Shown here: positions 2 to 23,910 of the stretch, one piece after another | Position numbering within the stretch: the stretch's first letter is position 1 | Layout of the letters: the number at the start of each line of letters is the position of its first letter | Program-made: the position numbers and the translations under genes | IMG/VR virus record: IMGVR_UViG_3300025141_000450 | Location: 1-32,108 of that record | DNA from: a virus | Length of the DNA stretch: 32,108 bases | Direction: 5' to 3' (one strand) | Notes under the pieces: model-generated | What the model was told of the DNA's origin: nothing | The model's database searches: none | Seen by the model: the letters and a program-made list of their open reading frames with translations, nothing else

Positions 2-3000
2 GCCTCTCGTGTTGTTATTGGTGGTGATTGGGGTGAAGGTCCGATTCGCATTCAGGTAGAGAACTATTCATCTAGGCCCACACAGTTATTGATACAGTCT
101 GCGGACATGACCACAGAGGCTCTAAACTCTATTGTAAAACACATGAACGTGGATGGTGTTGGCGGTAGAGCACAAGTAGCGCACGCTCTTAGAGAGCTTA
201 CCAGAGAGCTTGGGCAGCTTTCTCTTCAAGGTGACCTTGCCGGTAAGATTCTTTACGAGTTCACCTACCACCCGAAGGCTGCAAAGCCGAGGTTCAAAAT
301 AAGAGAGTCTGTTGCTGATGAAGGGCTGACCTACATTGTAGAGGACCTGTCTACAAAAGAGGTGGTTGGTGAGTACGCAACACCATCTCAAGCAAGAGCA
401 AGTATGGAAGAGGGGAGCTTTGTAGACTCAACCAACACTTCCGTAAGCGCTATTGATGATGCGGCTCCGTATGGAATACCTGACGGCATTGAGCTTGAAA
501 TGCTTCCAGGTGAAGAGGTGAAGGGGTGGCAGCTAGTAGACAAAGCGACAGGTGAAAGGGTTCTTGCTTCTAAAAGCATGGAAGAAATACAGAAGTTTAG
601 AAAGGATAAAGGAGAGACCCTTCTTCCAAATAAAGAGCAAAAGTATCAGGTGGTTGAGGCTGTTTTCCTTGATGACCCATCCGATTCTGCACACCGTATT
701 GTGGACAGACACGGCAGGCTCATGGAGACATTCCCGAATAGAGAAGCTGCCTACGCCAGACTTAGAGAGTTAGGGGTTAGTTCTCCACAAAAGTTTAAGA
801 TTACAGGTGAAGAGCTTGCCAGAGCCTTGAACTCTCCTGAAGCTTTAGAGCTTGTGTCTCAAGCTCTTATCTCTGCCGCTAAGCGTGAAAACCTCAACCT
901 TCTTCGTAACCCAGATTTTCCAGACAGGGGTGTGCTGGGCATTACAGTCCCTGTGAAGGATATTGACGGTAACGTACATCAGCTTGACGCTGTGAAGCTG
1001 GGCCTATTGAGGCCAAGAGGTAAAACATACGAGCTAAGCCCTATGGCTCGAATGATAATCAATGACTCAAATGTTGGTGCTGCTGGGTACGAAAGCAGAA
1101 TGAGGTCCTCGATTGGCGGGTTTGAGGAAATCAGGTTCGTGTCAGAGTTTGCCGAAGAAGGTCCGATTATTGCTGTGGACCATATTTCTTTAGCAAAGGT
1201 TAACCGTCCATTAGTCATAGAGAGCAGCCCATCACCCAAACCATATCTTGAGGTTCAGGCTCCGGTTCCTCCAAGGACTGAGGCCGTTCGTAAAACCAAG
1301 ATTGATTTGCCTGAAACCGAAACGTCTTGGGGTGTTGAGAAGGAAGTAGAGGTTGACCTTCCTGCAACAGAGCGTTCATGGGAAATAGAAAAAACAGTTA
1401 CAGATGTAGCAGATGCTGGTTACTGGAAGTACATTAGGGACAAGGCTGATATCCAGAGAAAGCTTAAGCCAATGTCTTCAGAGAAGACTGTTGCTGAAGT
1501 GGCCTCCATTGACTTTGACGAGGGGGTAAAGCTTCTTGGGACTAAGCTGGATGTTGATGAAGCTTATACAAGCATTCTGGAGCCACAGGCATCAGCGTTG
1601 GTTCGTAGGCTTGGGACCAGGGATTTACAGAAAATAGCTGACCATTATTCTGAGCAGCTTGGTGTTCCTATTGAGATTAAGAAAAGCCTTCCTACAGGTG
1701 CAGATAAGCTACAGGTCGAGATTCGGCCTCCGCTTAGAAAGCAAGTTCCACCGGGAAGACAGCCGAGCAGCTTAGATGCTTGGCAGATTGTTGTGCCTTT
1801 TGAGCCCCGTTTAAAGGTTGTTGGTCGAGTCAAAGGGAAAGACAGGTTGGTGCAGTATGCTCCAGGCAGGACAGAAATCCTACCAGCAGATAAGCGACCG
1901 ACTAAAACTGGACCCAAGGTCGAGCTTACTCCAGCTCTCAGAAAGAAAACAAAAGAGTTTCAGGAGAAGATTAGGGCGAAGCTCCTGGTAAAAAGGAATA
2001 AGCTTTCGGAAGAGCTTGCCGTGGTTGAAGCAAGGCCAATACGACCGAGAAAGAAGGTAAAAGGCAAGTGGGTTGATAAGACAAAGAAGCAGGTTGATGC
2101 TGCGTTCAATCGTAAACTCAAGAAAGAGAACGCTCTCAGAGAGCAAATAGCTGAAGTCGAGTCTGGAATAAAAGAGACTCAGCGTATTATTGACCTGGCT
2201 AAACCGGGCTTTCTTGAAGCTGCCGTTCAAATGAAAGGCCGGAGAAAGTTTTACATGCCTGAGGGCAACTTTGATGTTTCAGTAGTCAGGCAGTCTATCG
2301 AACAAATCGCAGAGCACCTGAGAGGTGGTGGTTCTAGAGCTACTCTACGCATACCGTTTGCTGTCAAAGATGACGTTCTTTATTTGGCCAATCAACCCAA
2401 GACACAGCAGCGCTCTCTTGTCCGTGATTCGGCTATTGCTGACACGATTAAAGGGACACCAGAAAACAAGACAAAGATTCTGAGAGAGGCTGATATTGGT
2501 GGAAGGGCTCCTTTTCTTCCGGCTAAGTTCTCTAGGCGAACATACGTCTATAAGCCACAGCCATGGGAAACTGGCGACTTTATAGACTTTAGAGAAAAGC
2601 CTACAACAGCCACTGTTGTAACTCAGCCTAAGCAACCCAAGAAAAAGCGCCAAACACAGGCAGAGCTTCCTCTCACAGAGGAGTCTTGGTCTCTAGAGTA
2701 CGCTCCACCCAAGATTGTTCGCCCTAAGCCTCCTGAGTATCTTCAGCTTTTTGAGGAATGGGTAGACAGAAAGGTTGCTGATGCTCCCAAGAAATCAAAG
2801 AAGCGAACACCGCAGCAATGGCTCGATGCGTATAAGGCTGTTGTAAGCAAAGCCTTAAAGGATGGCTCTTACGAGAAAGCTTTGAAGCCAAACAAGATGG
2901 GTGTTGCTCTGGCAGACAGAGACCTTGTTGGGCAGATTATTCTTTCTGCTGATTTGAAAATACCAGACAACATGAAGTCGTTTTATGTTGGGGCCAACCC

Positions 3001-6000
3001 TTCTGGAGGTCCGAAGCTTTACAACCTAAACAAGATGCAAGTGAAGCAGGTTGTTGGAAGGACGCAGACTTTTGAAAAGCCGATCTTGAAACCTGAAGGT
3101 CTAGAAACCGGCTTTGAGGGAAGAGCTGCTTACGGTGGGAAGTTTCCAAGGGAAGCTGTCACACTAGATTGGATTGCGAACGAGCTTGGTTACAATGTCA
3201 AGACAGGTGTAGCAGTCTTCGACTTTGTTACGGCCAACGATGGAACCCTGATTAGACGGCCTGCGGCAGTAGATAAGCTGGTAGCTAACGTGATGGGGAG
3301 AAGGGTCAGGTTTGAGACAAAGAGCGTAAAGACAGAGGCCATGTCAGCTAATGGCCACGATGTCATTCCAAACCAACTGGAAAGAGATAGCGGGTTTGGT
3401 CGCGGCGTTTCTATGCTTATGGACGAAAACGGAATGCCCATCACTAACGATGAGTGGAAGGCAAAGTACACTGAGTATAGCAATAAGAACGTAACCAGAA
3501 CTGACTCTCAGCTTGTTGCACAATACCTAAACAGGATTGATTACTTTGATGTCAGGGACACGTCTTTAGGGAAGATGTTTTTCGAGTACGGAGCCGAAGC
3601 GCTTGAGCCTATGGCTGAGCTGGCAGGAAAGACACTGCTTACAGATTCTATCGCTAATCGACTCCCAAGCTTGAATCCCAGAAACTGGGTTAATGGTCAG
3701 TGGAAAGCAATGCACCGAAACCCCATCGCTCAAGTAAAGGCTGCGTTCAACAGCCTTAGCGGTGAAAGTCTTGCTGCTTGGGATGTTTGGCGTAGGGGAA
3801 CGGGAGAGGTTCCGCAGCTTGCTCAGGTGTATAGTTGGGGCAATGATTGGGTTGAAGCTGGGTTAGTGAAGCCAGTCACAGACGCAAGCGGTGCTGTAGT
3901 TTCATATCAGCCTACAAGCCTCGGCATTCTTGCAGCCGTGTATGGCATTGGAAGAAGGTCTGACTTTTACAGAAACATGCCCTTCAGACAGTTGACGGGT
4001 ACGGGCGCTCAAGGTCTTGCCCCTAATCTACGAATAGATTTTAGGCGTGTCATTGACGAAATCACACCTGTTACGGCTGAAGATTTACAAGTAAAGCATA
4101 TCCTTCACTCGCTCAACGACCTTGAAAGGTCTAGGAAGTGGATTTCTGACCCCATAATAGCTTACCAGAACGCTGTCCTTCGTTATGCTGCTGATGCGGG
4201 GATGTTTCCCACAGCTAATGCAACACTAAATGCTATTGGATATTTCAGGAATATTTGGGAGGGAGCGTTTGATGAATACTCCCGCGTTTCTTCTGGCTCT
4301 AAACCGTTTAGTGAGAGCGCTGATAAGGCACGAACAACAAAGGGTTATACTGAAGCAGAAGTAAGCTCTATGGAGTTACTTGCGGGGAAAAGCATGGTGC
4401 ATATGGACCCGCATATGTTCCTGGGGTTTGTCCAAGCAGAGCTTGAAACAAGAGTTAACTTTATCAACATCATCGAAAGGCTTATCGACGAAGGAATAGT
4501 GCGACCAGAGTCTGAGCACGTAGCTTTGCTCAAAGTAAAAGATGGGAAGTTGAAAACTGCGGGAGAGGAAAAGACCGGACCTGGTCTTGGCTTTAAGCCT
4601 ATCGACATGGACGACCTTCTCGGGAAAATGAAAAATAGAACTGTAGAGGTGGATGTTCCAGAAGGGTCCGAGCGCATTTTGTTTGAAGGGCTAAAAAACA
4701 AGTATGGGCAACTATATGCTACCCCTCAAGCTGTAGAGCTTTTGAATCTACAGCTAAGCACCAAAGCACATCTCGATAAGGTTTCAAAAAAATACGCTCA
4801 TGAATCAAATGTTGTAAAAGACTTGTTCTTTGACGTGGATGAGAATCTTCGCAGCAAAGAAGATGTTCTACGTAAAGCACATGAGCTGATGGGGCCAGAG
4901 ATTGAGCCGATTATTCGTGATGCTTACACAGAAATGGCTGTTAAGGCTGGTAAAGCTGTGAACCCCAACATATCTGTCAGAAAGATGCTCAGCCTAATAG
5001 CTGGGACTGACAGAGAGTCATCTGTGCTTGCTTCTGTTATTGATAAAATGGCTGGGGCAAGCCATGTAGTTCAAGGATTAGCTCTTCAAAGATGGTACAA
5101 GACAGGAGCTTTGTTCAGGTCTTCTGCTCGCGGTTTTATGAGAAACACGTTTGGCAACTTTGCGCTGGCTTTAGCGCATCATCCAGAAGCTTTCTTAGAC
5201 CCTGTATATTGGGAGGGGATGCGATATTTCTGGGGTGGCAAGCTTCCAGCTAAAGAAGGCATAAGGGTCATACCAGAAGGTGTAGGTGGTATTGGGCCTA
5301 GAAGAGTTACAGAGAAAATCACACTAAAGAATGGTGATGTTGTAGAAGCGGAAGTTTTCCGAGACAGCCCGCTTCCCCCAGATGTCAAAGAGTTCCAGTA
5401 CGAGCTTATTGCAAGGAACATTATTGGAAACGGATTCAGCCAGGAACTAAAAGCAGACGTTCCATCGCTTATGAGAAATATGCTTGGGAATAATAAGACT
5501 CGAGCCTACCGTGAGATTATGGCGGAAACATCTTTGGCTATAGAAAAGAAAATTGCCAAACAAAAACTCGGTGAAGCAGAGGGTGCTGGTGAGGCCGCGA
5601 AGTTCCTTGGAGATTTACTAGAAAACTACACCATGAGCGCAGAGTTCAGAAAGATAGTTGATGACGCTGTAAAAGCTGAAGGAGCTGAAGCGGTATCTAA
5701 ATACCTTAACTCAAACTGGGCTAAGAAAGCAGCGGAAGCTGGCAAGTATACCGTTGACTTCCCGTTCCGCACGGGTCCAGGGAAAACGCTTGAGAGGCAC
5801 ATAAAGTCTTTGTTTGTAGTGACTGACGATATGTATCGGTGGAGTCACGCTTATTGGCTGTGGAAGAGAAAAAAGATGAGCTTCGATGACATTACTGTTA
5901 TGTCTGGAGAGTTCATGCCTGACTTTGTTAGAAACAGTCCTATCATGCACGCAACCAGGCTATTAAATCCTTGGGCATTTTGGCCTGTAAAGACCGCAAG

Positions 6001-7165
6001 AAACCTCATGCTTCTTGCATCGAAAAGGCCAGTATACACGGGCCTTATGCGGCAACTTTCATTGTGGCTTGATGCTGTAGAGATGTCAGAAATGACACCT
6101 GAGGACCGATGGGCTCATATGCTAAGGCCAAAACGAGAAAAGAGTTGGATGCTCAGGACTCCATTTGGAGATTATTCGTTTGGGTACTCTTTCTACACAG
6201 GAGACCTTGACACCCTGTTCGACCCAATGGCCGCTTTGGATGTTGGTGTTTCAGGTATGGTGTGGGATGGGTTGAAGTTTGCAAAGGGGGCGCTTGGGCC
6301 TGAGTTTGAAAGAATAGCTTACCCAGAAAAGTTTGAGCGCAGGTTTGGGAAAGACGTTGTGATGGCAGGTTTTTTGGACAACCTTGCTTTTATGTATAAC
6401 CACTACCACAACACCTATATGGGTCGGTTTACAGCTAATCCCGTGAATGTGGCGGCAAACGTAGCCAAAGAGTTCACTTCCGATGGGCTGTATCATGAAC
6501 TGAAAGAGCACATTTGGGACCCAGAAATATCAATGGTTGACCAGCTTAAGCGTATGGCTAAGTTTACGACCAGTGTTGGTCTTCGCGCTTCTGGCTCTGG
6601 TCTTCAGCGTCTACGAAGAGTCCTTGGGGATCCTGTCAACCCTGATAATATAAGAATAAAAAGTAAGCTAGAGGATGGCTTCTTCTTGAAAAAGGCGATG
6701 GGAAGCAAAGACCCCGAGACCTGGGCTGACCTAATCATGGCTGAAATGTTGGGCTTTGACCCTGCAAGTAGAAACCAGGCTAAGCAGATACTTGCTGATA
6801 TTATCAGGAAGAAAAAGAATGTATCTGCTGCTCTGCGTTATGTGAGAGAGGGCAAAGGTCCCGAGTTTGAAGTCGATGACGGTATGCCAGAAGGCGCAAG
6901 GCTCAGGTACTTGAAAGAAGCAATGGACAGCCCATTTGGTCTTAGTGGAAAACCAATACAGGAAACAAACGTGAGAGATGAAGAGGTAATGAAGCGTATA
7001 ATGCCTGCTCTCATCTCTACGATTCAGACTGAGCCATCGACTAAAGAGCCGATATTGAGGAGTCTTAGTGAGTTGAGGAAAAAGAGCCCTTCACCATTCC
7101 TTGACAACATGATAACTATTATAACGGGTATGGATATACAGGGCATACCCACTCGAAAGGAGTAA
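2..7165 (+). CDS. Giant virion (internal/ejection-type) protein, 5' truncated by window edge
   Basis: The frame is open from base 2, so the true start lies outside the window; 2387 residues are visible. No enzyme motif is clear. The middle (window residues about 430-900) is rich in Lys, Pro and Glu and looks like disordered linker. It carries three copies of a DLPxTExSW motif at residues 435-443, 452-460 and 888-896. The C-terminal third (about 1700-2250) is rich in Trp, Phe and Tyr, with a stretch beginning NPWAFWPVKTARN that resembles the ends of large polyvalent phage proteins. Its size, and its place before tail and lysis genes, suggest an internal virion protein ejected with the DNA. I looked for T7/N4-type RNA polymerase motifs and found none. 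The role is inferred from size and position. Confidence 0.8.
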   Translation, partial: ASRVVIGGDWGEGPIRIQVENYSSRPTQLLIQSADMTTEALNSIVKHMNVDGVGGRAQVAHALRELTRELGQLSLQGDLAGKILYEFTYHPKAAKPRFKIRESVADEGLTYIVEDLSTKEVVGEYATPSQARASMEEGSFVDSTNTSVSAIDDAAPYGIPDGIELEMLPGEEVKGWQLVDKATGERVLASKSMEEIQKFRKDKGETLLPNKEQKYQVVEAVFLDDPSDSAHRIVDRHGRLMETFPNREAAYARLRELGVSSPQKFKITGEELARALNSPEALELVSQALISAAKRENLNLLRNPDFPDRGVLGITVPVKDIDGNVHQLDAVKLGLLRPRGKTYELSPMARMIINDSNVGAAGYESRMRSSIGGFEEIRFVSEFAEEGPIIAVDHISLAKVNRPLVIESSPSPKPYLEVQAPVPPRTEAVRKTKIDLPETETSWGVEKEVEVDLPATERSWEIEKTVTDVADAGYWKYIRDKADIQRKLKPMSSEKTVAEVASIDFDEGVKLLGTKLDVDEAYTSILEPQASALVRRLGTRDLQKIADHYSEQLGVPIEIKKSLPTGADKLQVEIRPPLRKQVPPGRQPSSLDAWQIVVPFEPRLKVVGRVKGKDRLVQYAPGRTEILPADKRPTKTGPKVELTPALRKKTKEFQEKIRAKLLVKRNKLSEELAVVEARPIRPRKKVKGKWVDKTKKQVDAAFNRKLKKENALREQIAEVESGIKETQRIIDLAKPGFLEAAVQMKGRRKFYMPEGNFDVSVVRQSIEQIAEHLRGGGSRATLRIPFAVKDDVLYLANQPKTQQRSLVRDSAIADTIKGTPENKTKILREADIGGRAPFLPAKFSRRTYVYKPQPWETGDFIDFREKPTTATVVTQPKQPKKKRQTQAELPLTEESWSLEYAPPKIVRPKPPEYLQLFEEWVDRKVADAPKKSKKRTPQQWLDAYKAVVSKALKDGSYEKALKPNKMGVALADRDLVGQIILSADLKIPDNMKSFYVGANPSGGPKLYNLNKMQVKQVVGRTQTFEKPILKPEGLETGFEGRAAYGGKFPREAVTLDWIANELGYNVKTGVAVFDFVTANDGTLIRRPAAVDKLVANVMGRRVRFETKSVKTEAMSANGHDVIPNQLERDSGFGRGVSMLMDENGMPITNDEWKAKYTEYSNKNVTRTDSQLVAQYLNRIDYFDVRDTSLGKMFFEYGAEALEPMAELAGKTLLTDSIANRLPSLNPRNWVNGQWKAMHRNPIAQVKAAFNSLSGESLAAWDVWRRGTGEVPQLAQVYSWGNDWVEAGLVKPVTDASGAVVSYQPTSLGILAAVYGIGRRSDFYRNMPFRQLTGTGAQGLAPNLRIDFRRVIDEITPVTAEDLQVKHILHSLNDLERSRKWISDPIIAYQNAVLRYAADAGMFPTANATLNAIGYFRNIWEGAFDEYSRVSSGSKPFSESADKARTTKGYTEAEVSSMELLAGKSMVHMDPHMFLGFVQAELETRVNFINIIERLIDEGIVRPESEHVALLKVKDGKLKTAGEEKTGPGLGFKPIDMDDLLGKMKNRTVEVDVPEGSERILFEGLKNKYGQLYATPQAVELLNLQLSTKAHLDKVSKKYAHESNVVKDLFFDVDENLRSKEDVLRKAHELMGPEIEPIIRDAYTEMAVKAGKAVNPNISVRKMLSLIAGTDRESSVLASVIDKMAGASHVVQGLALQRWYKTGALFRSSARGFMRNTFGNFALALAHHPEAFLDPVYWEGMRYFWGGKLPAKEGIRVIPEGVGGIGPRRVTEKITLKNGDVVEAEVFRDSPLPPDVKEFQYELIARNIIGNGFSQELKADVPSLMRNMLGNNKTRAYREIMAETSLAIEKKIAKQKLGEAEGAGEAAKFLGDLLENYTMSAEFRKIVDDAVKAEGAEAVSKYLNSNWAKKAAEAGKYTVDFPFRTGPGKTLERHIKSLFVVTDDMYRWSHAYWLWKRKKMSFDDITVMSGEFMPDFVRNSPIMHATRLLNPWAFWPVKTARNLMLLASKRPVYTGLMRQLSLWLDAVEMSEMTPEDRWAHMLRPKREKSWMLRTPFGDYSFGYSFYTGDLDTLFDPMAALDVGVSGMVWDGLKFAKGALGPEFERIAYPEKFERRFGKDVVMAGFLDNLAFMYNHYHNTYMGRFTANPVNVAANVAKEFTSDGLYHELKEHIWDPEISMVDQLKRMAKFTTSVGLRASGSGLQRLRRVLGDPVNPDNIRIKSKLEDGFFLKKAMGSKDPETWADLIMAEMLGFDPASRNQAKQILADIIRKKKNVSAALRYVREGKGPEFEVDDGMPEGARLRYLKEAMDSPFGLSGKPIQETNVRDEEVMKRIMPALISTIQTEPSTKEPILRSLSELRKKSPSPFLDNMITIITGMDIQGIPTRKE

Positions 7166-13863: not shown

Positions 13864-13891
13864 TTGACAATATAGGGTGACTGATTAGAAT
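13864..13891 (+). promoter_or_regulatory. Sigma70-like promoter, plus strand (primase-helicase operon)
   Basis: TTGACA at 13864-13869, a 16-nt spacer and TAGAAT at 13886-13891. The -35 is perfect and the -10 has five of six consensus bases. It is interleaved with a mirror promoter on the other strand, sharing a base at each end. The predicted start of transcription, near 13898, leaves almost no leader for the first ORF. Confidence 0.75.
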
Positions 13892-13896
13892 GTCAA
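13869..13896 (-). promoter_or_regulatory. Sigma70-like promoter, minus strand (exonuclease/RAD52/SSB operon)
   Basis: On the minus strand TTGACA (13896-13891), 16 nt, then TATATT (13874-13869). The predicted start near 13862 gives a short leader to the ATG at 13843. Its -10 touches the -35 of the plus promoter and the reverse, so one polymerase should exclude the other. Confidence 0.75.
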
Positions 13897-13898
13897 GT

Positions 13899-14177
13899 AT
13901 GCAGATTAGCACCGAGCAGAAGATGAAAGCCGCCAAGAGTTTGGCAGCCGAGATGAACATCCCAGTTCGGAGAGCCCTGAAGTATGTGTATCAGTTTCAC
14001 TACGTTTCACTGATACACGTACTCAGGGTTATAGATACCGACCCAGAGGCATTCGAGAAATGGTTCAAGCAGCAAAGAAAACTGATGAAACTGCAATGGG
14101 ACGTGCGCCCTCCGATGCAGAGCAGGATAGCAGCGCGCCAGAACAAGGCGAAGGTTGTATCGGCATTGTCGGAGTAG
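13899..14177 (+). CDS. Small basic helical protein, unknown, first gene of primase operon
   Basis: About 92 residues, mostly helical and basic (KMKAAKSLAAEMNIPVRRAL, AFEKWFKQQRKLMK). I do not recognise it. Start choice is uncertain: ATG at 13890 lies inside the predicted -10 box, ATG at 13899 would be leaderless, and ATG at 13923 has no good Shine-Dalgarno. The coding sequence contains a 54-nt hairpin (13975-14028). The 3' end overlaps the primase-helicase by about 118 nt. It could be a transcription or replication regulator, or not a gene at all. Confidence 0.55.
   Translation: MQISTEQKMKAAKSLAAEMNIPVRRALKYVYQFHYVSLIHVLRVIDTDPEAFEKWFKQQRKLMKLQWDVRPPMQSRIAARQNKAKVVSALSE
13975..14028. repeat. 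Long hairpin inside ORF with the conserved TCACTACGTTT core (copy G)
   Basis: Arms CCCTG-a-AGTATGTGTATCAGT and ACTGATACACGTACT-CAGGG pair over 20 bp with one mismatch and one bulged A. The loop region (13996-14008) contains TCACTACGTTT, identical to the core of the hairpin at 19409. It is the strongest palindrome of the set and lies about 80 bp from the divergent promoters. Confidence 0.85.
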
Positions 14178-16802: not shown

Positions 16803-17077
16803 ATCGTTAGGTCCTCATCCCAGTAGTCATCATCGTGGTAAGCACCGAAGCTTCCCAATTCGTCAAGCTGTACTGACACCCCCACCCTAAGTAGGTGGTT
16901 GTAGTCGCCAGCCATCATCTCGTCGATTACTTTGTTCTTGGCCTCAAGAGGCCAGCCTTGCTCTGCCAAAGCACGGCCCACTCGGGCCATGATTGAGTAG
17001 GCATTCCCATCTTCTCCAACAAGTTGGAAGTCTGCTTTGCCGTATTTATCTACCAGTGTTTGTATTTGTTTAGTCAT
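16799..17077 (-). CDS. Small conserved-looking phage protein, unknown
   Basis: A 92-residue protein, MTKQIQTLVDKYGKADFQLVGEDGNAYSIMARV and onward, with an EMMAGDYNHLLRV motif. This 'GNAYSIM...A...G......EM..GDYDHLL' layout recurs in small proteins of many phages, with no assigned function. ATG at 17077 follows ATGGAGGAATCG; the upstream ATG in that box is in frame but overlaps the SD. The start overlaps the preceding stop by 8 nt. Confidence 0.75.
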   Translation of the reverse strand: MTKQIQTLVDKYGKADFQLVGEDGNAYSIMARVGRALAEQGWPLEAKNKVIDEMMAGDYNHLLRVGVSVQLDELGSFGAYHDDDYWDEDLTI

Positions 17078-17282
17078 CGATTCCTCCATCAAACTCAGTT
17101 AAGGGTATTGCTTTTCCTGTTGTTATTCGTGGCTCTCTAAGCTCACACCCTTTAGGGCAAGGTGTCTCAGAGAGTCCTTGGACTATCGGGGTCGTGCCCC
17201 ATCCGGCACAGAGTTCGCACTCGCTGTCCTTCCAGAAGGGTCTTGGGTACGGTATGTTGGTTCGCCATTTCAGCTCAGTCAT
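17070..17282 (-). CDS. Small zinc-ribbon-like protein, unknown
   Basis: A 70-residue protein with CELC (about residues 22-25) and CPKGC (about 42-46), a possible four-cysteine zinc site. The start at 17282 follows the leader AACCCAAATGGAGGAACC. That leader contains an in-frame upstream ATG (17294) that overlaps the SD and is not favoured. A conserved hairpin stands just before the leader. Confidence 0.68.
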   Translation of the reverse strand: MTELKWRTNIPYPRPFWKDSECELCAGWGTTPIVQGLSETPCPKGCELREPRITTGKAIPLTEFDGGIDD

Positions 17283-17310
17283 TGGTTCCTCCATTTGGGT
17301 TTATCCTCAG

Positions 17311-17342
17311 GACTATAACCTTCACTCTGTTCAGGTTTAGTC
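17311..17342 (-). promoter_or_regulatory. Conserved intergenic hairpin (copy A)
   Basis: Arms ACTATAACCT (17312-17321) and AGGTTTAGT (17333-17341) pair with one bulge around the core TCACTCTGTTC. The right arm contains the stop codon of the upstream gene. On the minus strand it reads AACCT-GA-AC-AGA-GT-GA-AGGTT. No T-tract follows. Confidence 0.75.
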
Positions 17343-17780
17343 TTGAGGTAAAACCATAGGGTGAAAGTTAGGAAAGTCTTCCTCTGGCACATCTTCAAGC
17401 GGATACCCAGTAGGGTTGCCGCCAACTCCGCAAACGTTACCAGTGTAAACTCTTTTACCCAGGTCTTCCTCTGCTAGTTTGATACGGTTTCTAAGCTGAT
17501 ATAGCTTTTCTTGGCATCGGTCGCATGATGGATTACCCAGACGCTCTTTGTGGTCAAGGTCCACTCCGCAACAACCGCGACCGTTCGAGACAGTTTTAGC
17601 TTCCTCCAGGGCATCTCTGATTCTTTGCCTCTGCTTTGGAGACAGCAGCACCCAGTCAAACTGGCTGGTCTGGCACCAAGGTTTACCTTGGACAGGTGCC
17701 CGATTCTTGTCGGATACCACCTTTGCGTGTATTTCTTGGAGCATTCGCCCCCACTCTACAAGTTCTTCTAAGAATCCCAT
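17337..17780 (-). CDS. Cys-containing protein, unknown
   Basis: A 147-residue protein: helical N-terminus (MGFLEELVEWGRMLQEIHAKV), then LLSPKQRQRIRDALEEAK, then a cysteine cluster GRGCCGVDLDHKERLGNPSCDRCQEKLYQLRNRI (about 70-103) that could bind zinc. The start has the AACCCAAATGGAGGAACATC leader. The family is not recognised. Its stop lies inside conserved hairpin A. Confidence 0.7.
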   Translation of the reverse strand: MGFLEELVEWGRMLQEIHAKVVSDKNRAPVQGKPWCQTSQFDWVLLSPKQRQRIRDALEEAKTVSNGRGCCGVDLDHKERLGNPSCDRCQEKLYQLRNRIKLAEEDLGKRVYTGNVCGVGGNPTGYPLEDVPEEDFPNFHPMVLPQD

Positions 17781-17959
17781 GATGTTCCTCCATTTGGGTT
17801 AGTGGGCAGTTTTACGGCGTGCCCAGGCCCTCCTATATTCGCGGTCTTATTAGCTCTGGCAAGCTCGCCGCCAAGTGTTTGCGGTAGATAAGAACCTTCA
17901 AGCAGGTTCTTTGACGATGCTACCGCACACCGCCCTGTGTACTGAATGCCAGCCGAAAC
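17768..17959 (-). other. Open reading frame without a start codon, possible +1-frameshift extension
   Basis: From 17959 to a stop at 17768 one frame stays open for 63 codons and reads like protein (AGIQYTGRCAVASSKNLLEG, ARANKTANIGGPGHAVKLP), but has no ATG, GTG or TTG. It overlaps the end of the zinc-knuckle ORF 17898-18077 in a different frame. It could be the second half of that gene reached by a frameshift, a gene with a non-standard start, or chance. Confidence 0.35.
17889..17910 (-). repeat. Short hairpin at the end of the zinc-knuckle ORF
   Basis: Plus-strand arms AAGAACCT and AGGTTCTT flank TCAAGC, a perfect 8-bp stem with a 6-nt loop that contains the stop codon of the 17898 ORF. It lacks the conserved core of the other hairpins but shares the CCT/AGG closing pairs. 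Confidence 0.5.
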
Positions 17960-18077
17960 TCAACTTCACGTAGCAGAACTGGCAAGCGGTTTTGGTGTCG
18001 AATACAGGGGGCCTGGGGAGTTTTTCTGCTACGCTTTCGGGAATGGCAGCTTTAGCCTCTCGGCTAAGGGGTGCCAC
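17898..18077 (-). CDS. Zinc-knuckle-like small protein, uncertain
   Basis: A frame with GTG at 18077, 59 residues, with CQFCYVKLSFGWHSVHRAVCG near the C-terminus (C-x2-C, two His, Cys). It overlaps the end of the 18029-18208 gene by 49 nt. The start is weak. An alternative is that only the C-terminal half is real, or that it continues by a frameshift into the open frame ending at 17768. Confidence 0.4.
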   Translation of the reverse strand: MAPLSREAKAAIPESVAEKLPRPPVFDTKTACQFCYVKLSFGWHSVHRAVCGSIVKEPA

Positions 18078-18208
18078 AGCACAAGATGCTCGTCGAGTAT
18101 CTTTGAACAAGGTTCACAGCATACAATCTCTGTTTCCTTTATTCGCTGTGGCTCCCCTTCCTTGAACAGGAAGCTGCTGCAAAGGTCGCATTCTAAATCA
18201 CTGCTCAA
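18029..18208 (-). CDS. Small four/five-cysteine zinc protein with TTG start
   Basis: A 59-residue protein from TTG at 18208, which overlaps the TGA of the DUF932-like gene (TTGA). CDLC at residues 7-10 and CCEPC at 30-34 form a likely zinc ribbon, with HLVLWHPLAERL after it. The pattern is typical of a real treble-clef or ribbon protein. It is short and would be missed by length cut-offs. Confidence 0.6.
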   Translation of the reverse strand: MSSDLECDLCSSFLFKEGEPQRIKETEIVCCEPCSKILDEHLVLWHPLAERLKLPFPKA

Positions 18209-18924
18209 GCAGCCATTAGGAACTGATGCGCTTTAGCTTGCTTTTCCATACGATTACCACCGCACCCTTTCTTTAGAGCCTCTGTAAAGGCGTTATACAG
18301 GCACCAGGTGTTACGGTCCAGAAACTCTTCGTGTGAGGGGTTCTTCCACTCACGCATAGCAACCGTAGCTTGCTGTGGTTTCAAGACTTCGTAGCCTAAA
18401 GCCCGTCCGATAAGGTCATACCCGTTATCGTTGGTCATTGACTGACCTTTCATGATGGCAAAGTCTTCGTTGATTTGGTCGTAGTAGAACTGAGACCACT
18501 CGATAGACTCATGGATGAGTCGGACAGCATCACGCCATACATACCTGGTGTGTTTTCTGATTACCCTGGTGGCGTCACCAGAGAAGCAAAGGTTAGAGCA
18601 AACAAAGACACTAGCACCAGAGGTGATGCCGAGTGAAAGGGTTTTGTTGTAAGAGTTGCGGAGCCCTATAGCTAGGCCGTTATCTTCTTGACCAGTGTCG
18701 AAGGTAATAACACCAAAAAGCTGTTGGTCTTTAGACGCTAAGCCATACTGTTCACTGTAGATTGGAAGTCCGAGCATAGAAGATTGGTCCCTGACCTCTT
18801 CTACGAACTGTTTATTTGACACAGGTTGCCAGCTACGGGTAGCCGGTGGAACGGGTACGGCATAGGCTTCATCCAAGCCTTCTACATGTCGTCCGTCGAT
18901 TGAATCCATCATTAGTCCTCGCAT
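18205..18924 (-). CDS. DUF932-like phage/plasmid protein
   Basis: A 239-residue protein. The core matches the DUF932 (TIGR03299-like) pattern: FGVITFDTGQEDNGLAIGLRNSYNKTLSLGITSGASVFVCSNLCFSGD at about residues 69-116, then RKHTRYVWRDAV, and a late MREWKNPSHEEFLDRNTWCLYNAFTEALK helix pair. Family members are common in phages and plasmids and have no proven biochemical role. ATG at 18924 follows AACCCAAAAGCATGGAGGATAAC; the in-frame ATG within this leader is not favoured. Confidence 0.8.
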   Translation of the reverse strand: MRGLMMDSIDGRHVEGLDEAYAVPVPPATRSWQPVSNKQFVEEVRDQSSMLGLPIYSEQYGLASKDQQLFGVITFDTGQEDNGLAIGLRNSYNKTLSLGITSGASVFVCSNLCFSGDATRVIRKHTRYVWRDAVRLIHESIEWSQFYYDQINEDFAIMKGQSMTNDNGYDLIGRALGYEVLKPQQATVAMREWKNPSHEEFLDRNTWCLYNAFTEALKKGCGGNRMEKQAKAHQFLMAA

Positions 18925-18950
18925 GTTATCCTCCATGCTTTTGGGTTTCT

Positions 18951-19184
18951 TTAGAAAGGGATGTTCTCGAATTTCTCGCTTTGTAATACCTTATTGAAAA
19001 ACTCAGCGGTCAAGCAAAGCTCATTGCACAGGTCTTTTGTCTCGTCCTCGGCATCCGTAGCGTGGACCAATCGGGTAAGGTTTGTGACCAGTAGCACGAT
19101 AGCCGCTGATTGGTTTTTAGCGGTGCTTTGTTTTGTACTATGAAGTGGAAGCAACTGGTGTCCGAAGCCTGTTGTTCGTTGCAT
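18951..19184 (-). CDS. Small helical protein, unknown
   Basis: A 77-residue protein (MQRTTGFGHQLLPLHSTKQSTAKNQ, then helical). ATG at 19184 has the leader AACCAAATGGAGGAACAA. A second in-frame start at 19238 also has a good SD (GAGGAG, 8 nt) and lies 1 nt after the preceding stop, giving a 95-residue form beginning MNDGDEDEPR. Both forms may be made. The family is not recognised. Confidence 0.62.
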   Translation of the reverse strand: MQRTTGFGHQLLPLHSTKQSTAKNQSAAIVLLVTNLTRLVHATDAEDETKDLCNELCLTAEFFNKVLQSEKFENIPF

Positions 19185-19239
19185 TTGTTCCTCCATTTGG
19201 TTCATGATTCTAGGTTCATCTTCGTCGCCGTCATTCATC

Positions 19240-19395
19240 TTATTTCTCCTCGATTACTTGCCTGGTTTCTGCCAGGTTTTGGTTTATATTTTCCAGTTGT
19301 GCTCGGATGTGGTGCAAGCTAATAGCAATATCTCTAATGCTTGTGAGCGTCATCTCAGCAAACGCAATAAATTTTCCAACAGATTTGGGGTCCAT
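19240..19395 (-). CDS. Small helical/coiled-coil protein (51 residues)
   Basis: ATG at 19395 with AGGAGG 5 nt upstream, encoding MDPKSVGKFIAFAEMTLTSI and then ISLHHIRAQLENINQNLAETRQVIEEK, a clear amphipathic coiled coil. The stop is followed 1 nt later by the next possible ATG. Conserved hairpin B ends 3 nt before its SD. Confidence 0.68.
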   Translation of the reverse strand: MDPKSVGKFIAFAEMTLTSIRDIAISLHHIRAQLENINQNLAETRQVIEEK

Positions 19396-19408
19396 TTTTT
19401 CCTCCTAT

Positions 19409-19447
19409 CTCAGGAATGACCTTCACTACGTTTAGGTCATTCTTGAG
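19409..19447 (-). promoter_or_regulatory. Conserved intergenic hairpin (copy B)
   Basis: Arms CTCAGGAATGACCT (19409-19422) and AGGTCATTCTTGAG (19434-19447) pair over 14 positions with one G.T, around the core TCACTACGTTT. The hairpin fills the gap between the 19451 stop and the SD of the 51-residue gene. Confidence 0.8.
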
Positions 19448-19450
19448 TAG

Positions 19451-19792
19451 TTAAAGCATTTCCTTGGCTGCGTCATACAACTCATCTTCGTCAATCCACT
19501 GTTCACGTATGTACTTGAGTGTAGCGCCAGTTAAGTCATAGAAGTTTTTCTCATTGTACTCCGATTCATTCCCGTCTACGGAGTAGAACGTGGGGAGTAC
19601 CTCGACAATCTCAATCTCTCTAGATGAGGGGTAACACTCCTCGGGTGGTCCCTCTGTGTGGGCGCTTTCGTGCTCTATGTTTACGGTAATATCCATGCAG
19701 AGAATTATAGTTCTGGGGAACACCCTGGTGTGCTCTTGTGGGTCGTCAATGGTGATTGAGTGTTGTATTTCTACTTGTCCTTTGCGTAGCAT
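19451..19792 (-). CDS. Hypothetical protein, acidic
   Basis: A 113-residue acidic protein. The N-terminal half is beta-like (VEIQHSITIDD, RTIILCMDITVNIEH) and the C-terminus is helical (LTGATLKYIREQWIDEDELYDAAKEML). GGAGGAAACA stands before ATG. The gene starts 9 nt after the preceding stop. The family is not recognised. Confidence 0.7.
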   Translation of the reverse strand: MLRKGQVEIQHSITIDDPQEHTRVFPRTIILCMDITVNIEHESAHTEGPPEECYPSSREIEIVEVLPTFYSVDGNESEYNEKNFYDLTGATLKYIREQWIDEDELYDAAKEML

Positions 19793-19801
19793 TGTTTCCT
19801 C

Positions 19802-20590
19802 CTAATGCTGTAAGAATCCGATTACATCAGCCGCTTCTTTAGAAGCATCGCAAAGACCGCAGTCGTTGCATGTAATCTTGTCATGAGTTTGAGCGGGGCA
19901 GACAACTACCTTGCGACCTGCCTTGGTGGTGATGGGCCGTCCATCGTACTCGGGGATATCTTTGAACTTAGATTTCTTGGTGGCGCTGAGCTTTGGTGCC
20001 TTGAAAGGCAAGATAGCAGCGGTTCTCCATCCAAGCTCGACGAGTTCATCAGCCTCATCCAGGTTACAGCTTGCCATAGCAAGCCCTTTGAGGTGAGCGC
20101 CTTTAGTCTTGGCGAAGTGAGTGTAGAGCAGCAACCCCTTGAATCCGGCATCCTTTAGGGATTTGAACCATCCTTTGACTGTCTCAACAGAGAAGACGTG
20201 AGGGTCGCCACCGACAGCTCCACGAGCATACTTTGCAGACCTTGCAGACCTGGGCAGCACAGCCTCTAGGCTGTATGCCTCTGGACGGCGCTTAGCATAG
20301 CCTTTAGTCATCGAAATATGACCGAGCTGGCTTGACCCCTTCCAGTGGTAGCAATCGTCGTCTAAGAGGGGGCATCCTTCGCAGCTTGCTTTAGCTTTGT
20401 CGATTGTCTGTCCGACATACCCTTGGGGTATATCACCTGTCTTTATGTTCTTGGACCTTGCAGTCCACATCATTTCGGTCTCGGTGCCTTTCGTGGCACG
20501 CAGAATGCTCTGTAATTTGGGCCTGGACAGCGTTGGGCTGTTCCAAGACAGCCACTCGGGGTCTCTTACGAGATTGTGATTCGTTCCCAT
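19802..20590 (-). CDS. Two-cysteine-cluster phage protein (DUF7227-like)
   Basis: A 262-residue protein. MWTARSKNIKTGDIPQGYVG (about 41-60) is followed by CEGCPLLDDDCYHW (about 70-83). The C-terminus has CPAQTHDKITCNDCGLCDASKEA (about 232-254). These two clusters with a central PFKAPKLS segment match a phage-protein family I associate with DUF7227; its function is unknown and the clusters may hold zinc or an Fe-S centre. The ATG has the leader AACCCAACGATGGAGGAACACG and lies downstream of conserved hairpin C. Confidence 0.75.
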   Translation of the reverse strand: MGTNHNLVRDPEWLSWNSPTLSRPKLQSILRATKGTETEMMWTARSKNIKTGDIPQGYVGQTIDKAKASCEGCPLLDDDCYHWKGSSQLGHISMTKGYAKRRPEAYSLEAVLPRSARSAKYARGAVGGDPHVFSVETVKGWFKSLKDAGFKGLLLYTHFAKTKGAHLKGLAMASCNLDEADELVELGWRTAAILPFKAPKLSATKKSKFKDIPEYDGRPITTKAGRKVVVCPAQTHDKITCNDCGLCDASKEAADVIGFLQH

Positions 20591-20616
20591 CGTGTTCCTC
20601 CATCGTTGGGTTCTGG

Positions 20617-20660
20617 CAGGCTAGTTAGTACCTTCATTACATTCAGGTACTAACTGCCTG
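20617..20660 (-). promoter_or_regulatory. Conserved intergenic hairpin (copy C)
   Basis: Arms GTTAGTACCT (20624-20633) and AGGTACTAAC (20645-20654) pair perfectly around the core TCATTACATTC. An outer CAGGC/GCCTG stem (20617-20621 with 20656-20660) adds 5 bp across a small internal loop. Within the core C-G has changed to T-A, keeping the pair. Confidence 0.82.
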
Positions 20661-20667
20661 AATCTTG

Positions 20668-20802
20668 TTATTTATCTGCGTCGTATACGTGATACTTTCC
20701 GTCGAGTTCTCGATTTACAAACAGAGAATCTCTGTTGTCAGACTCACAAAATTCAATCGCTTCCCATATGGTCAGGAATGTCTTGATTGATATCATCGTC
20801 AT
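20668..20802 (-). CDS. Small protein (44 residues), unknown
   Basis: ATG at 20802 overlaps the upstream stop as ATGA and GGGAGGG precedes it. It encodes MTMISIKTFLTIWEAIEFCE and then DSLFVNRELDGKYHVYDADK, a plausible helix plus beta hairpin. It ends 8 nt before conserved hairpin C. It is short but well supported by the junction. Confidence 0.62.
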   Translation of the reverse strand: MTMISIKTFLTIWEAIEFCESDNRDSLFVNRELDGKYHVYDADK

Positions 20803-21029
20803 ACCCTCCCACCTTGCTCGCACATATAGCAGCCATGGCATCGACAACCGACCTTAGGGTCGGTGGTTACGCTGTATCCAATGACGCCAGGACCAGGCTC
20901 GACCAGGTAAGCCCCAGTCTCAATAGTGATTTGACCGTCTTCTTCGTTCTGGCTAAAGATTATGTCATCCATCCCAAGCTCTGCTAAAGCCCGTTTCGCT
21001 TCCATTACAAAGCTATTATAAAGTTTCAT
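20799..21029 (-). CDS. Small Cys-rich-tail protein, unknown
   Basis: A 76-residue protein: helical N-terminus (MKLYNSFVMEAKRALAELGMDDI), beta middle (GQITIETGAYLVEPGPG) and a C-terminal CRCHGCYMCEQGG cluster with four Cys and one His, a likely metal site. The start overlaps the upstream stop (ATGA) with GAGGAA 6 nt before. Confidence 0.68.
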   Translation of the reverse strand: MKLYNSFVMEAKRALAELGMDDIIFSQNEEDGQITIETGAYLVEPGPGVIGYSVTTDPKVGCRCHGCYMCEQGGRV

Positions 21030-21382
21030 GCTGTTTCCTCGTTTACGTAAGTATAAATAAGCCCGTTATCGGCAAGGTAGAATCGGTCAATGTTGAGGGG
21101 TTCGCTCGATTCTTTGAAGCTATCTGTGCGTTCGGCTTCCAAGGCAGAGTCAAGCTCATCCCTATAGGCTCCCCAGTCTTCAAGCAGCTCTGCATATTCA
21201 AAGGCTTTAGGGCTTTTGCAACCCATCGAACTGCCATCTACGAACGTTTCGGTTTCAAGAATATGCACAAGCACCTTCTTGTACCCGTGCTCCGTCTTTT
21301 TGGTTTCTTTATTGAGCGAATACAGAGCGAATCGTTTTCCGCACAAGGGGCACTTTAGTGTATTTTCTTTCTTGATACCCAT
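21026..21382 (-). CDS. Zinc-finger-containing protein, unknown
   Basis: A 118-residue protein starting MGIKKENTLKCPLCGKRFALYS; CPLC near the N-terminus is one zinc knuckle, and a later Cys (GCKSPKAFEYAELLEDWG) may complete it. ATG at 21382 shares a base with the stop of the TTG-start gene (TAATG) and GGAGG lies 8 nt upstream, so this start is preferred to ATG at 21388. Confidence 0.7.
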   Translation of the reverse strand: MGIKKENTLKCPLCGKRFALYSLNKETKKTEHGYKKVLVHILETETFVDGSSMGCKSPKAFEYAELLEDWGAYRDELDSALEAERTDSFKESSEPLNIDRFYLADNGLIYTYVNEETA

Positions 21383-21525
21383 TACCATCTCCTCCAGTTG
21401 ATACCGAATAGGTATCCAACAAAGTGAATATCTATGTAGCCTATGTACTCTGACGGGTACGCCAGGTTATGAAATATTCCGCAGCGGGTTTGCCCTTTCA
21501 CAAGTCTGTTGATTCTATAGTTCAA
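21382..21525 (-). CDS. Small protein (47 residues) with TTG start
   Basis: TTG at 21525 with AGGAGG 5-6 nt upstream encodes LNYRINRLVKGQTRCGIFHN then AYPSEYIGYIDIHFVGYLFG, aromatic-rich. It overlaps the preceding gene by 11 nt and its stop forms TAATG with the next start. Overlaps on both sides and the strong SD support a real gene missed by ATG-based calling. Confidence 0.65.
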   Translation of the reverse strand: MNYRINRLVKGQTRCGIFHNLAYPSEYIGYIDIHFVGYLFGINWRRW

Positions 21526-21886
21526 CGGTTCCTCCTAGCTTCTCGATTTGTGCTAAAGCACGGTGGTAGTTTTTGAGGTGGTAGGCAGCCATCTCGTTTA
21601 GGTAGGCAATCCATTCGGCTTCCTCTGCATCTGCCACGCCTTGGACTGTGTTGGGAATACCCCACCTACGGTCACTCTCTCGCCCTTCGATAGCTTCAGA
21701 GATGGGGTCTGTTACGATTTCCGGCTCGGGGCAATAGCTTTCAAGATTCGCTTTAGCGATACGGCGCTCAGCACGGTTATAAGCACGGCTGGCACGGCGT
21801 GATTTACGCTGGTCTACGAGGTAGCTTTTCTCATGGCGAGCATATTTGGCTTCACTATAGTGTTTTGCAAGTTGGATTTCAGTCAT
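21515..21886 (-). CDS. Basic helical protein, unknown
   Basis: A 123-residue protein: Lys/Arg-rich N-terminal half (KYARHEKSYLVDQRKSRRAS, RAERRIAKANLES), then an acidic loop, and a C-terminal helix (EWIAYLNEMAAYHLKNYHRALAQIEKL). ATG at 21886 follows AACCCAAATCCGATGGAGAAACCG; an in-frame ATG overlaps the SD. Conserved hairpin D stands just upstream. The family is not recognised. Confidence 0.68.
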   Translation of the reverse strand: MTEIQLAKHYSEAKYARHEKSYLVDQRKSRRASRAYNRAERRIAKANLESYCPEPEIVTDPISEAIEGRESDRRWGIPNTVQGVADAEEAEWIAYLNEMAAYHLKNYHRALAQIEKLGGTVEL

Positions 21887-21914
21887 CGGTTTCTCCATCG
21901 GATTTGGGTTAGTT

Positions 21915-21953
21915 GGTATCCCCTACCTTCACTTCGTTCAGGTAGGGAATACC
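21915..21953 (-). promoter_or_regulatory. Conserved intergenic hairpin (copy D)
   Basis: Arms GGTATCCCCTACCT (21915-21928) and AGGTAGGGAATACC (21940-21953) form a 14-bp stem with one wobble, around TCACTTCGTTC. It fills the space between the 21959 stop and the leader of the 21886 gene. The 43 nt from 21915 to 21957 recur exactly at 22227-22269. Confidence 0.82.
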
Positions 21954-21958
21954 TATGG

Positions 21959-22207
21959 TTAGTGGTCGTGGCAGTCCCAACAGACAGCGCCGCCAAAGGT
22001 TTCACAGTATCCAAGCTCGCCCGGTAGGGTTTCGCGGATGTCTAGGCCGTGTGTGTTGCCACCAAGGTGGACGTTGATTGAGTTTGGGCCTTGAGCCTCG
22101 ACTCCACAGCTTTCACAGTTGTCAGGCGTCCACATGACATACCATCCTGGTCTCATGAAACTGTTGGGTGTATAGGCGGCATTTTCTTCGATTTCGATTG
22201 TCAGCAT
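21959..22207 (-). CDS. Small zinc-site protein, unknown
   Basis: An 82-residue protein with CESCG (about residues 31-35) and GAVCWDCHDH at the C-terminus, a likely Cys4 (or Cys/His) zinc site, and a SMALL beta core (GWYVMWTPDN, SINVHLGGNTHGLDI). GAGGAACACA precedes ATG. It lies between two identical hairpins (D and E). The family is not recognised. Confidence 0.68.
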   Translation of the reverse strand: MLTIEIEENAAYTPNSFMRPGWYVMWTPDNCESCGVEAQGPNSINVHLGGNTHGLDIRETLPGELGYCETFGGAVCWDCHDH

Positions 22208-22226
22208 TGTGTTCCTCGGTGGTTAC

Positions 22227-22265
22227 GGTATCCCCTACCTTCACTTCGTTCAGGTAGGGAATACC
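22227..22265 (-). promoter_or_regulatory. Conserved intergenic hairpin (copy E)
   Basis: Same 14-bp arms and TCACTTCGTTC core as copy D; 43 identical bases. It stands between the 22284 stop and the SD of the 22207 gene. The identity of D and E suggests recent duplication or gene conversion. Confidence 0.82.
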
Positions 22266-22283
22266 TATGTAGAGCGGTTCGGG

Positions 22284-22991
22284 TTAGTTTTCTGACAGGA
22301 ACCCAGCGGTCTGGGCTAAAGTGATGTTCGTGAACTCATTCCACAGACGGGCATTACTGCGATTCTTCGCAGCCCTGCGTTGAGCCTTTCGCATACGGGC
22401 TTTAGCCTTGGCGAGTTGAGCCTTTAGGCTCTCGATTTGAGAGTCTTTCATCTCGATGGTTGGGCCATAGGCTATGCCACCGTGTAGTTGCTCCCAGATG
22501 AAGGTTTCAGACTCGTCAAGAGCAGCCTCTAGGCTTTCATTCTTAGCCTTTAGGCTTGCAAGCTCAGTCACGCGGAGGTGAAGAGCCTCGACCAGGTTTC
22601 CATTTTCGGCCTCGAGTTTCGCGACCGCCTTGACTAAAGTCAGCCGCGACTCACGGTCTTTTTGAAGGTCGTCGATTACAGAGGCAGCAAACTCTGCGTC
22701 AGCCTTTAGGCTCTCGATTTCAGCCTTTAGGCGTAGATTTTCTATGTACCGGCGCTGTTTAGTTGCGCTCCTGCGGTTCCGTGATTTCGCGTACTCCTCG
22801 AGGGATTCGATGTAAGCCTTTAGGCTCTCGATTTCAGCCTTTAGGGCACGGTTTCGCTCCTGCACGTTCCAGCGCACCTGCCAGTTAGCCTCGGTGCGTT
22901 CCTCGAGCACCTCTTTAGCGGTATCGGCTTGAGCCTTTAGGCTCTTGACGTATGGGAACAGGGACAGGATGGATTCGATAATGCGTTTCAT
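22284..22991 (-). CDS. Long coiled-coil protein with ESLKA repeats
   Basis: A 235-residue protein, nearly all alpha-helical coiled coil. ESLKA or a close variant recurs at least seven times (for example LKAEIESLKAYIESLEEY, RLKAEIESLKADAEF, DSQIESLKAQLAKAK), encoded with the repeated unit AGCCTAAAGGCT. The start is MKRIIESILSLFPYVKSL, after GGAG. The C-terminus is basic (KARMRKAQRRAAKNRSN). It could be a scaffold, tether or SMC-like accessory protein. I do not recognise it. Confidence 0.72.
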   Translation of the reverse strand: MKRIIESILSLFPYVKSLKAQADTAKEVLEERTEANWQVRWNVQERNRALKAEIESLKAYIESLEEYAKSRNRRSATKQRRYIENLRLKAEIESLKADAEFAASVIDDLQKDRESRLTLVKAVAKLEAENGNLVEALHLRVTELASLKAKNESLEAALDESETFIWEQLHGGIAYGPTIEMKDSQIESLKAQLAKAKARMRKAQRRAAKNRSNARLWNEFTNITLAQTAGFLSEN

Positions 22992-23040
22992 GGGAAACTC
23001 CAAAGAAAGGGGGGGTTATAGGGGGTTAGTTAGTTTATGT

Positions 23041-23060
23041 GGGGGGGCTTGCGCCCCCCC
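23041..23060 (-). terminator. Perfect GC hairpin with GCAA loop after the 23069 gene
   Basis: GGGGGGGC and GCCCCCCC pair over 8 bp; the minus-strand loop is GCAA, a GNRA tetraloop. It lies 8 nt after the stop of the 23069-23761 gene. No T-tract follows, so it may stabilise the mRNA end or only partly terminate. Confidence 0.5.
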
Positions 23061-23068
23061 TGTGTGTG

Positions 23069-23761
23069 TTATTTGGCGCGGGGGATAACCCGGTCAGCCT
23101 CGGCGGCTACGGTCTCACGGTTGATGTTGAGAGCCTTCGCGAGTTTACCCATGCGCTCCTCTACGGTTACCGCGCCGGCTGCTAAAGCAGCCCGGAAGTT
23201 ATCATCGCCGGGTTTTGGCATCACGCCCCATGCCTGAGCGTTAGCAAACTCGCGCCGTAGGCTGGCACCGTCGGTTTTCTCGCAGACCATCATGGCGCAG
23301 GCTAACCGTGCGCGGTTCCAGACTTTGCTGCTGTATGGTTCAGCCAGGAAGGAGCCAAACCCTTTAGGGTCAACAATCGCACCCTCTTCGCGCTTGAACC
23401 CCGCATCAGCCTCGAGAGCCTTGACCAGCCAATCGGCGGAGTAGGTTGTCTTGCGCTTGCGGTTGGTACGCTTGCGGTTGGTGCGCTTAGGCTTGGCAGC
23501 CATCTCCTTGACAGGAATCTCTACGGTGGCAGCCTTCGCCTTGGGTGCGGACTTCTTCGCGGGTGAATCGGCGGTTTTCTTGGGAGCCTTCTTGCGTGTG
23601 GTTTTCGCGGGTGCCGCTTTAGCGGGTTTGATTCCGGCAGCCTCGGCAATAGCAGCGGAACCAGTCAAACCGTCGGCAATAGCGCGCATGATTTTCGCGG
23701 CACGTGCAGCGTTGTCGGCTTCGTGAATGTCGGTCGAGTCGAGGTTGAATGAGATATTCAT
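23069..23761 (-). CDS. Protein with basic histone-H1-like linker, unknown
   Basis: A 230-residue protein in three parts: N-terminal helices (residues 1-45), a Lys/Ala/Pro-rich basic linker (about 46-108, with PAKKSAPKAKAA and KRTNRKRTNRKRK), and a C-terminal helical domain (SADWLVKALEADAGFKREEG, WNRARLACAMMVCEKTDGASLRR). The linker probably binds DNA. GGAG precedes the ATG by 7 nt. Hairpin F stands upstream. GC content is visibly higher than in the operon downstream of it. Confidence 0.72.
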   Translation of the reverse strand: MNISFNLDSTDIHEADNAARAAKIMRAIADGLTGSAAIAEAAGIKPAKAAPAKTTRKKAPKKTADSPAKKSAPKAKAATVEIPVKEMAAKPKRTNRKRTNRKRKTTYSADWLVKALEADAGFKREEGAIVDPKGFGSFLAEPYSSKVWNRARLACAMMVCEKTDGASLRREFANAQAWGVMPKPGDDNFRAALAAGAVTVEERMGKLAKALNINRETVAAEADRVIPRAK

Positions 23762-23782
23762 TGGGAAACTCCTATCGTGGGT

Positions 23783-23818
23783 GTGTTTGTACTTTCACTA
23801 CGTTCAAGTACTAAACAC
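23783..23818 (-). promoter_or_regulatory. Conserved intergenic hairpin (copy F)
   Basis: GTGTTT-GTACTT and AAGTAC-t-AAACAC pair over 12 bp with one bulge, around TCACTACGTTC. Compared with the other copies the inner C-G pair of the CCT/AGG box is T-A here, a compensatory change. Confidence 0.8.
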
Positions 23819-23910
23819 TCCCATGTTGGTTGGTTGGGGTCGGTCATTCGCCCCCCCCACACACCCACGGAAACCGTGAGCGGGTGAGAGAGTGAACCAC
23901 TCGAGGGCTG

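Follow-up and report, generated by a model that had tools for sequence, protein, structure and literature searches.

An apparently undescribed intergenic hairpin with a tandem-GA tip that precedes genes in several groups of phages

RNase III processing hairpins of the T7 type lie between early genes, just before the next ribosome-binding site, and have no T-tract. The hairpins that we describe here are similarly intercistronic in early operons, ahead of the next ribosome-binding site and free of a T-tract, but they differ widely in stem length, can also stand at operon starts and have a constant tip, in which two pairs separate the tandem GA from a tiny loop, and any cleavage of them is putative. 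The promoters used by the virion RNA polymerase of phage N4 are GNA-loop hairpins on the template strand (PMC4496689). These early promoters share with our element a small hairpin, a 3-base loop, a sheared G:A pair and a position before early genes, and their stem bases likewise need only pair; in contrast, our tips lie on the coding strand, with an extra tandem GA, a longer stem, varied loops and no recognised virion RNA polymerase. REP palindromes of the GTAG/CGTC classes (PMC3733652) are also short and intergenic, with several copies per genome, whereas here we noticed no GTAG/CGTC foot, orientation to the downstream gene is strict, and window stems are unshared except between copies D and E. 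Finally, bacterial GTCATCCTGAACGNAGTGAAGGATCT repeats, found in viral contigs and MAGs (L100, L108, L110, L170, L176 and others), have a tandem-GA tip and a small loop, but their stems are short and uniform and they have no consistent place before genes.

Our starting point was a viral sequence of 32,108 nucleotides (IMG/VR record IMGVR_UViG_3300025141_000450, hereafter the window), which encodes P22-type portal, RecE-like and Rad52-like proteins. An earlier note on this DNA had placed six hairpins in gaps between minus-strand genes, and all six cores are present where it put them (Table 1). A scan of the window with ACCTGAACNNAGTGAAGGT, allowing up to three mismatches, gave six minus-strand matches, at 17318, 19419, 20630, 21925, 22237 and 23791; 0.03 matches would be expected, and none of 100 shuffles reached six. 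Each of hairpins A to F sits inside a gap between co-directional minus-strand genes, which are probably early, between one stop codon and the next start codon, and ends a few bases short of the SD-like sequence and start codon. A T-tract after the stem is absent at every window copy. The note had claimed both this absence and the placement directly before genes, and both are true in the window and in other phages. Some of its details need amending: copy B has AA where the first GA is expected, and copy A contains internal bulges. The stem sequence changes that it listed between window copies, such as the one in copy F, are real. The hairpin region of the window has no DNA match in INPHARED.

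Table 1. Tandem-GA hairpins of the window and a divergent palindrome (all coordinates refer to the window).
Feature	Coordinates	Strand	Core or form	Context
Hairpin A	17300..17352	-	GAACAGAGTGA	precedes gene 17070-17294
Hairpin B	19409..19447	-	AAACGTAGTGA	precedes gene 19240-19395
Hairpin C	20617..20660	-	GAATGTAATGA	precedes DUF7227/phrog_2554 gene 19802-20590
Hairpin D	21915..21953	-	GAACGAAGTGA	precedes gene 21515-21886 (or 21898)
Hairpin E	22227..22265	-	identical to D over 39 bp	precedes gene 21959-22207
Hairpin F	23778..23823	-	GAACGTAGTGA, stem TACTT/AAGTA	precedes gene 23069-23761
Divergent seventh palindrome	13975..14028	-	AAACGTAGTGAA, GAA/GAA 3x3 internal loop	exonuclease/helicase divergent gap

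The earlier note spoke of seven copies and listed six positions; the divergent palindrome in Table 1 is probably the seventh. It is common to the window and its nearest relative, contig L177, with several two-sided (compensatory) stem changes. Its membership of the family is uncertain, because it lies in a divergent gap and adjoins overlapping divergent sigma-70-like promoters (13864-13896), each with 11 of 12 consensus matches on its strand. Two further features of the window were observed. CTTTAG is its commonest plus-strand 6-mer, occurring 37 times where shorter words predict 23, and 28 of these occurrences fall within minus-strand genes. A 71-bp stretch at 17879-17949 (minus strand) is 96% identical to L177:3018-3088 within an otherwise poorly aligned gap, and forms a hairpin in which GCGGTAG/CTACCGC encloses the arms AAGAACCT/AGGTTCTT.

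Pattern scans of IMG/VR recovered at least 119 stretches with CCTGAACNNAGTGAAGG, 68 with CCCTGAACNNAGTGAAGGG and 119 with CTCTGAACNNAGTGAAGAG. When the GA/GA tip of CTCTGAACNNAGTGAAGAG was replaced by AG/AG of the same composition (CTCTAGACNNAGTAGAGAG), no stretch matched, which indicates that the enrichment is specific to the tip. Some raw matches are not hairpins: about half of the matches in the first scan had no extended stem, and a fourth pattern, CCTCGAACNNAGTGAGAGG, gave just 7 strong hairpins from 61 stretches, so that exact core matches alone are not evidence. We therefore counted as strong only those matches that were kept after a long-stem requirement, and found at least 146 strong copies in about 90 viral contigs of several groups; the IMG/VR records are mostly fragments, shared ancestry in these counts was handled by simple redundancy removal only, and selection by exact core biases toward canonical tips. 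Contigs often hold two to six copies on one strand, and records with multiple copies nearly always have all of them on a single strand (5/0, 5/0, 4/0, 4/0 and so on). Copies also cluster within one part of a genome. One contig, L024, looks like an inverted repeat of itself with mirrored hairpin positions and is probably an assembly artefact. Another, L193 (G015), carries a different family of intergenic hairpins, with a TTAG loop and TGGAG..CTCCA feet, in three copies (876-920, 2792-2836 and 3225-3267).

As for hosts, one phage group is linked by its terminase to phages of Flavobacterium, Cellulophaga, Tenacibaculum and Maribacter. The cyanophage isolate Microcystis phage Mvi-JY20 has one tandem-GA hairpin, near 44.1 kb, and the first 50 kb of the isolates MW202828, Panino and elemoA, related to the Bacteroidota-phage-like group, contain no canonical hairpin. 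Rfam gave no match in the window and only matches below the gathering score in L179 and L186, and the core strings returned nothing relevant in the literature library searched; the earlier note, too, knew of no named element with this form. The intergenic tandem-GA hairpin is a real signal, apparently undescribed and of unproven function.

The stems bear the mark of selection on structure that the earlier note had read from the window. In a comparison of 15 copies, drawn from the window and from five further records, six of seven pairs change on both sides, one-sided changes do not occur, and every combination seen still pairs. Outer pairs, which played no part in the selection, agree: among matches picked by the tip alone, the flanking bases pair far more often than in shuffles, and the first outer pair is Watson-Crick in 82% and 94% of cases (z 11.6 and 9.0). 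The whole element thus consists of a loop of 3-4 nt, two base pairs, a tandem-GA internal loop and a covarying stem of about 8-24 bp.

The loop itself is not fixed. Among non-redundant copies with AC/GT inner pairs it is GTA in 28, GAA in 27, AAA in 11, ATA in 10, GGA in 4 and AGA in 3, an excess of final A that is partly due to the search pattern; with GT/AC inner pairs it is CTT in 4 and TCT in 2. Four-base loops (TTAA, TAAA, TTTA, GATA, TACG, TCTT, GTAT) also keep the tandem GA, which in most copies is flanked on both sides as Py-GA-Pu. Since loops such as CTT, TCTT, TAAA and TACG occur, the constant part is the tandem GA, usually as Py-GA-Pu, and not a GNA loop. The proposal that makes a C-G-closed d(GNA) loop the essential part is weakened accordingly, and we reject it as a general feature.

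Placement was scored for 94 non-redundant viral copies, with our own simple gene caller outside GenBank records. The downstream gene is on the strand of the tandem GA in 80 of 82 decidable gaps and on the other strand in 2. The gap separates co-directional genes for 59 of the 94 copies, and the hairpin follows the upstream stop by a median of 12 nt and precedes the start codon by a median of 32 nt, which is the intercistronic placement of T7-type sites. The hairpin-to-start distance varies between copies, and the leader 3´ of the hairpin is rich in A and C (42% A, 16% T). In certain copies an SD-like sequence lies within the outer stem, and others stand at the start of an operon, where the divergent neighbour gene is hundreds of bases away; both kinds indicate that the element accompanies the downstream gene and is not tied just to the point where the upstream gene ends. 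In G001 and G005, every copy is on the strand opposite the block of large genes, a block that as a whole is presumably structural.

The element is gained and lost quickly and belongs to certain genomes rather than to a gene family. Copies A, B and C are missing from the nearest relative, L177, in which a neighbouring protein is 79% identical, and the accessory genes that flank A and B in the window were likewise not found in it. A hairpin precedes a DUF7227 family gene in the window, in G005 (L186) and in G002 (L181), but no canonical copy occurs in the 440 kb of 79 further loci that the DUF7227 protein retrieved. With L177 also lacking the hairpin, we rejected general conservation before DUF7227 genes, and it is these absences that make the element a feature of particular genomes. 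The expectation of copies before homologous genes in relatives has a mixed outcome: against the absences just given, a homologous gene of about 600 aa is preceded by a hairpin in four other phages, G004 (two gene copies), G008, G025 and G014, with stems that differ yet still pair.

Our best reading, to which we give about an even chance, is that the tandem-GA element works as RNA, as a hairpin within the polycistronic early mRNA of the phage. The transcribed strand would fold into a hairpin after the stop of one cistron and ahead of the ribosome-binding region of the next; the fixed tip could be a stabilising cap, or a contact for an RNA-binding or processing protein of host or phage; and the hairpin may separate adjacent cistrons by cleavage, end protection or translational uncoupling, as T7 intercistronic sites do. 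RNA is favoured by the sense orientation and position. Copy D/E folds as RNA at -24.4 kcal/mol (z -6.1), and its complement more weakly, at -18.3. One copy has a C(UACG)G loop, a type that is stable in RNA. Folding energies on their own do not explain the tip, as GA/GA and AG/AG tips are predicted to be nearly equal in both RNA and DNA. Two observations count against an RNA hairpin: copies A to C are missing from L177, and G.T is scarce, although G.U pairs should be tolerated if the RNA is functional. The stems of GA hairpins have 8 G.T and 9 A.C single mismatches, compared with 61 and 28 in terminator-like hairpins at the same loci; the difference in G.T:A.C ratio is not significant (p 0.10), whereas the G.T rate differs (p 3e-7).

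The same mismatches bear on a reading as DNA, in which a cruciform or single-stranded hairpin extruded on the non-template strand would serve early genes as a kind of promoter or as a site for protein binding, much like the N4 promoters but with the stable tip on the other strand. Imperfections in GA-hairpin stems are strand-symmetric, with 43 of the pyrimidine/GT type against 44 of the mirror type, compared with 107:48 in terminator-like hairpins (p 0.004), and these stems show neither wobble excess nor one-sided changes. The Py-GA-Pu context that flanks most copies favours sheared GA pairs in both DNA and RNA. On account of the low G.T rate and the symmetric mismatch spectrum we retain the DNA reading, although we judge it unlikely: the varying distance to the start codon and the loops other than GNA speak against it, and the downstream gene has the tip on its coding strand, opposite to the strand that bears the N4 loop. 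The giant proteins of the window (2-7165, at least 2387 aa) and of G002 have no polymerase match in these fragmentary records, and two giant proteins have no meaningful match among solved structures; the one in L180 (634-8589, 2651 aa) contains an ART-PolyVal ADP-ribosyltransferase domain and the window protein matches no family. With the tip on the opposite strand and no polymerase recognised in the giant proteins of these fragments, we rejected an N4-like promoter. 

Two further accounts fit less of the evidence. The hairpins could be dispersed REP-like palindromes that spread between gaps and do little for the phage, which would suit the identity of copies D and E, the outer arms TTACGTGTACCCC..GGGGTACAC shared by copies of one genome (L179), the bacterial MAG repeats with a similar tip, and the gain and loss of copies among close relatives. 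Inert copies, however, would not be expected to differ in their stems and stay paired, as those of the window do. The strict 80:2 orientation and the retained position ahead of homologous ~600-aa genes in four phages also count against this account. No tetranucleotide foot such as GTAG is shared among the copies listed, inspection of stem feet found no GTAG/CGTC terminal tetranucleotide common across genomes, and none of 20 window proteins compared with PHROGs, 12 of them also with Pfam, matched a Y1 transposase. We regard a REP-like origin as quite improbable. Even less probable, in our estimate, is a role in terminating or attenuating transcription between early genes. Such a role would agree with the position behind a stop codon, and in L056, L072, L077 and L089 the tandem-GA tip is followed by a CT-rich tail, in most of them with overlap of a stop codon, and looks terminator-like; against this stand the T-poor leader, the copies at operon starts far from the divergent neighbour, and the window copies, for which the missing T-tract directly after the stem led us to reject an intrinsic terminator.

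Beyond the RNA hairpin that we prefer, we raise tentatively, as something that may well prove wrong, a broader proposal: that the element represents a class of gene-control hairpin, so far without a name, that is present in several phage groups and is recognised by a dedicated factor, either as RNA or as a DNA hairpin that is extruded on the non-template strand and marks early genes for transcription. A fixed tip on freely re-pairing stems across diverse phages suggests that their gene expression has a reader, or some physical requirement, in common. The element poses a clean question of RNA versus DNA, and its tandem-GA tip offers a sequence handle for locating early operons in uncultivated phages.
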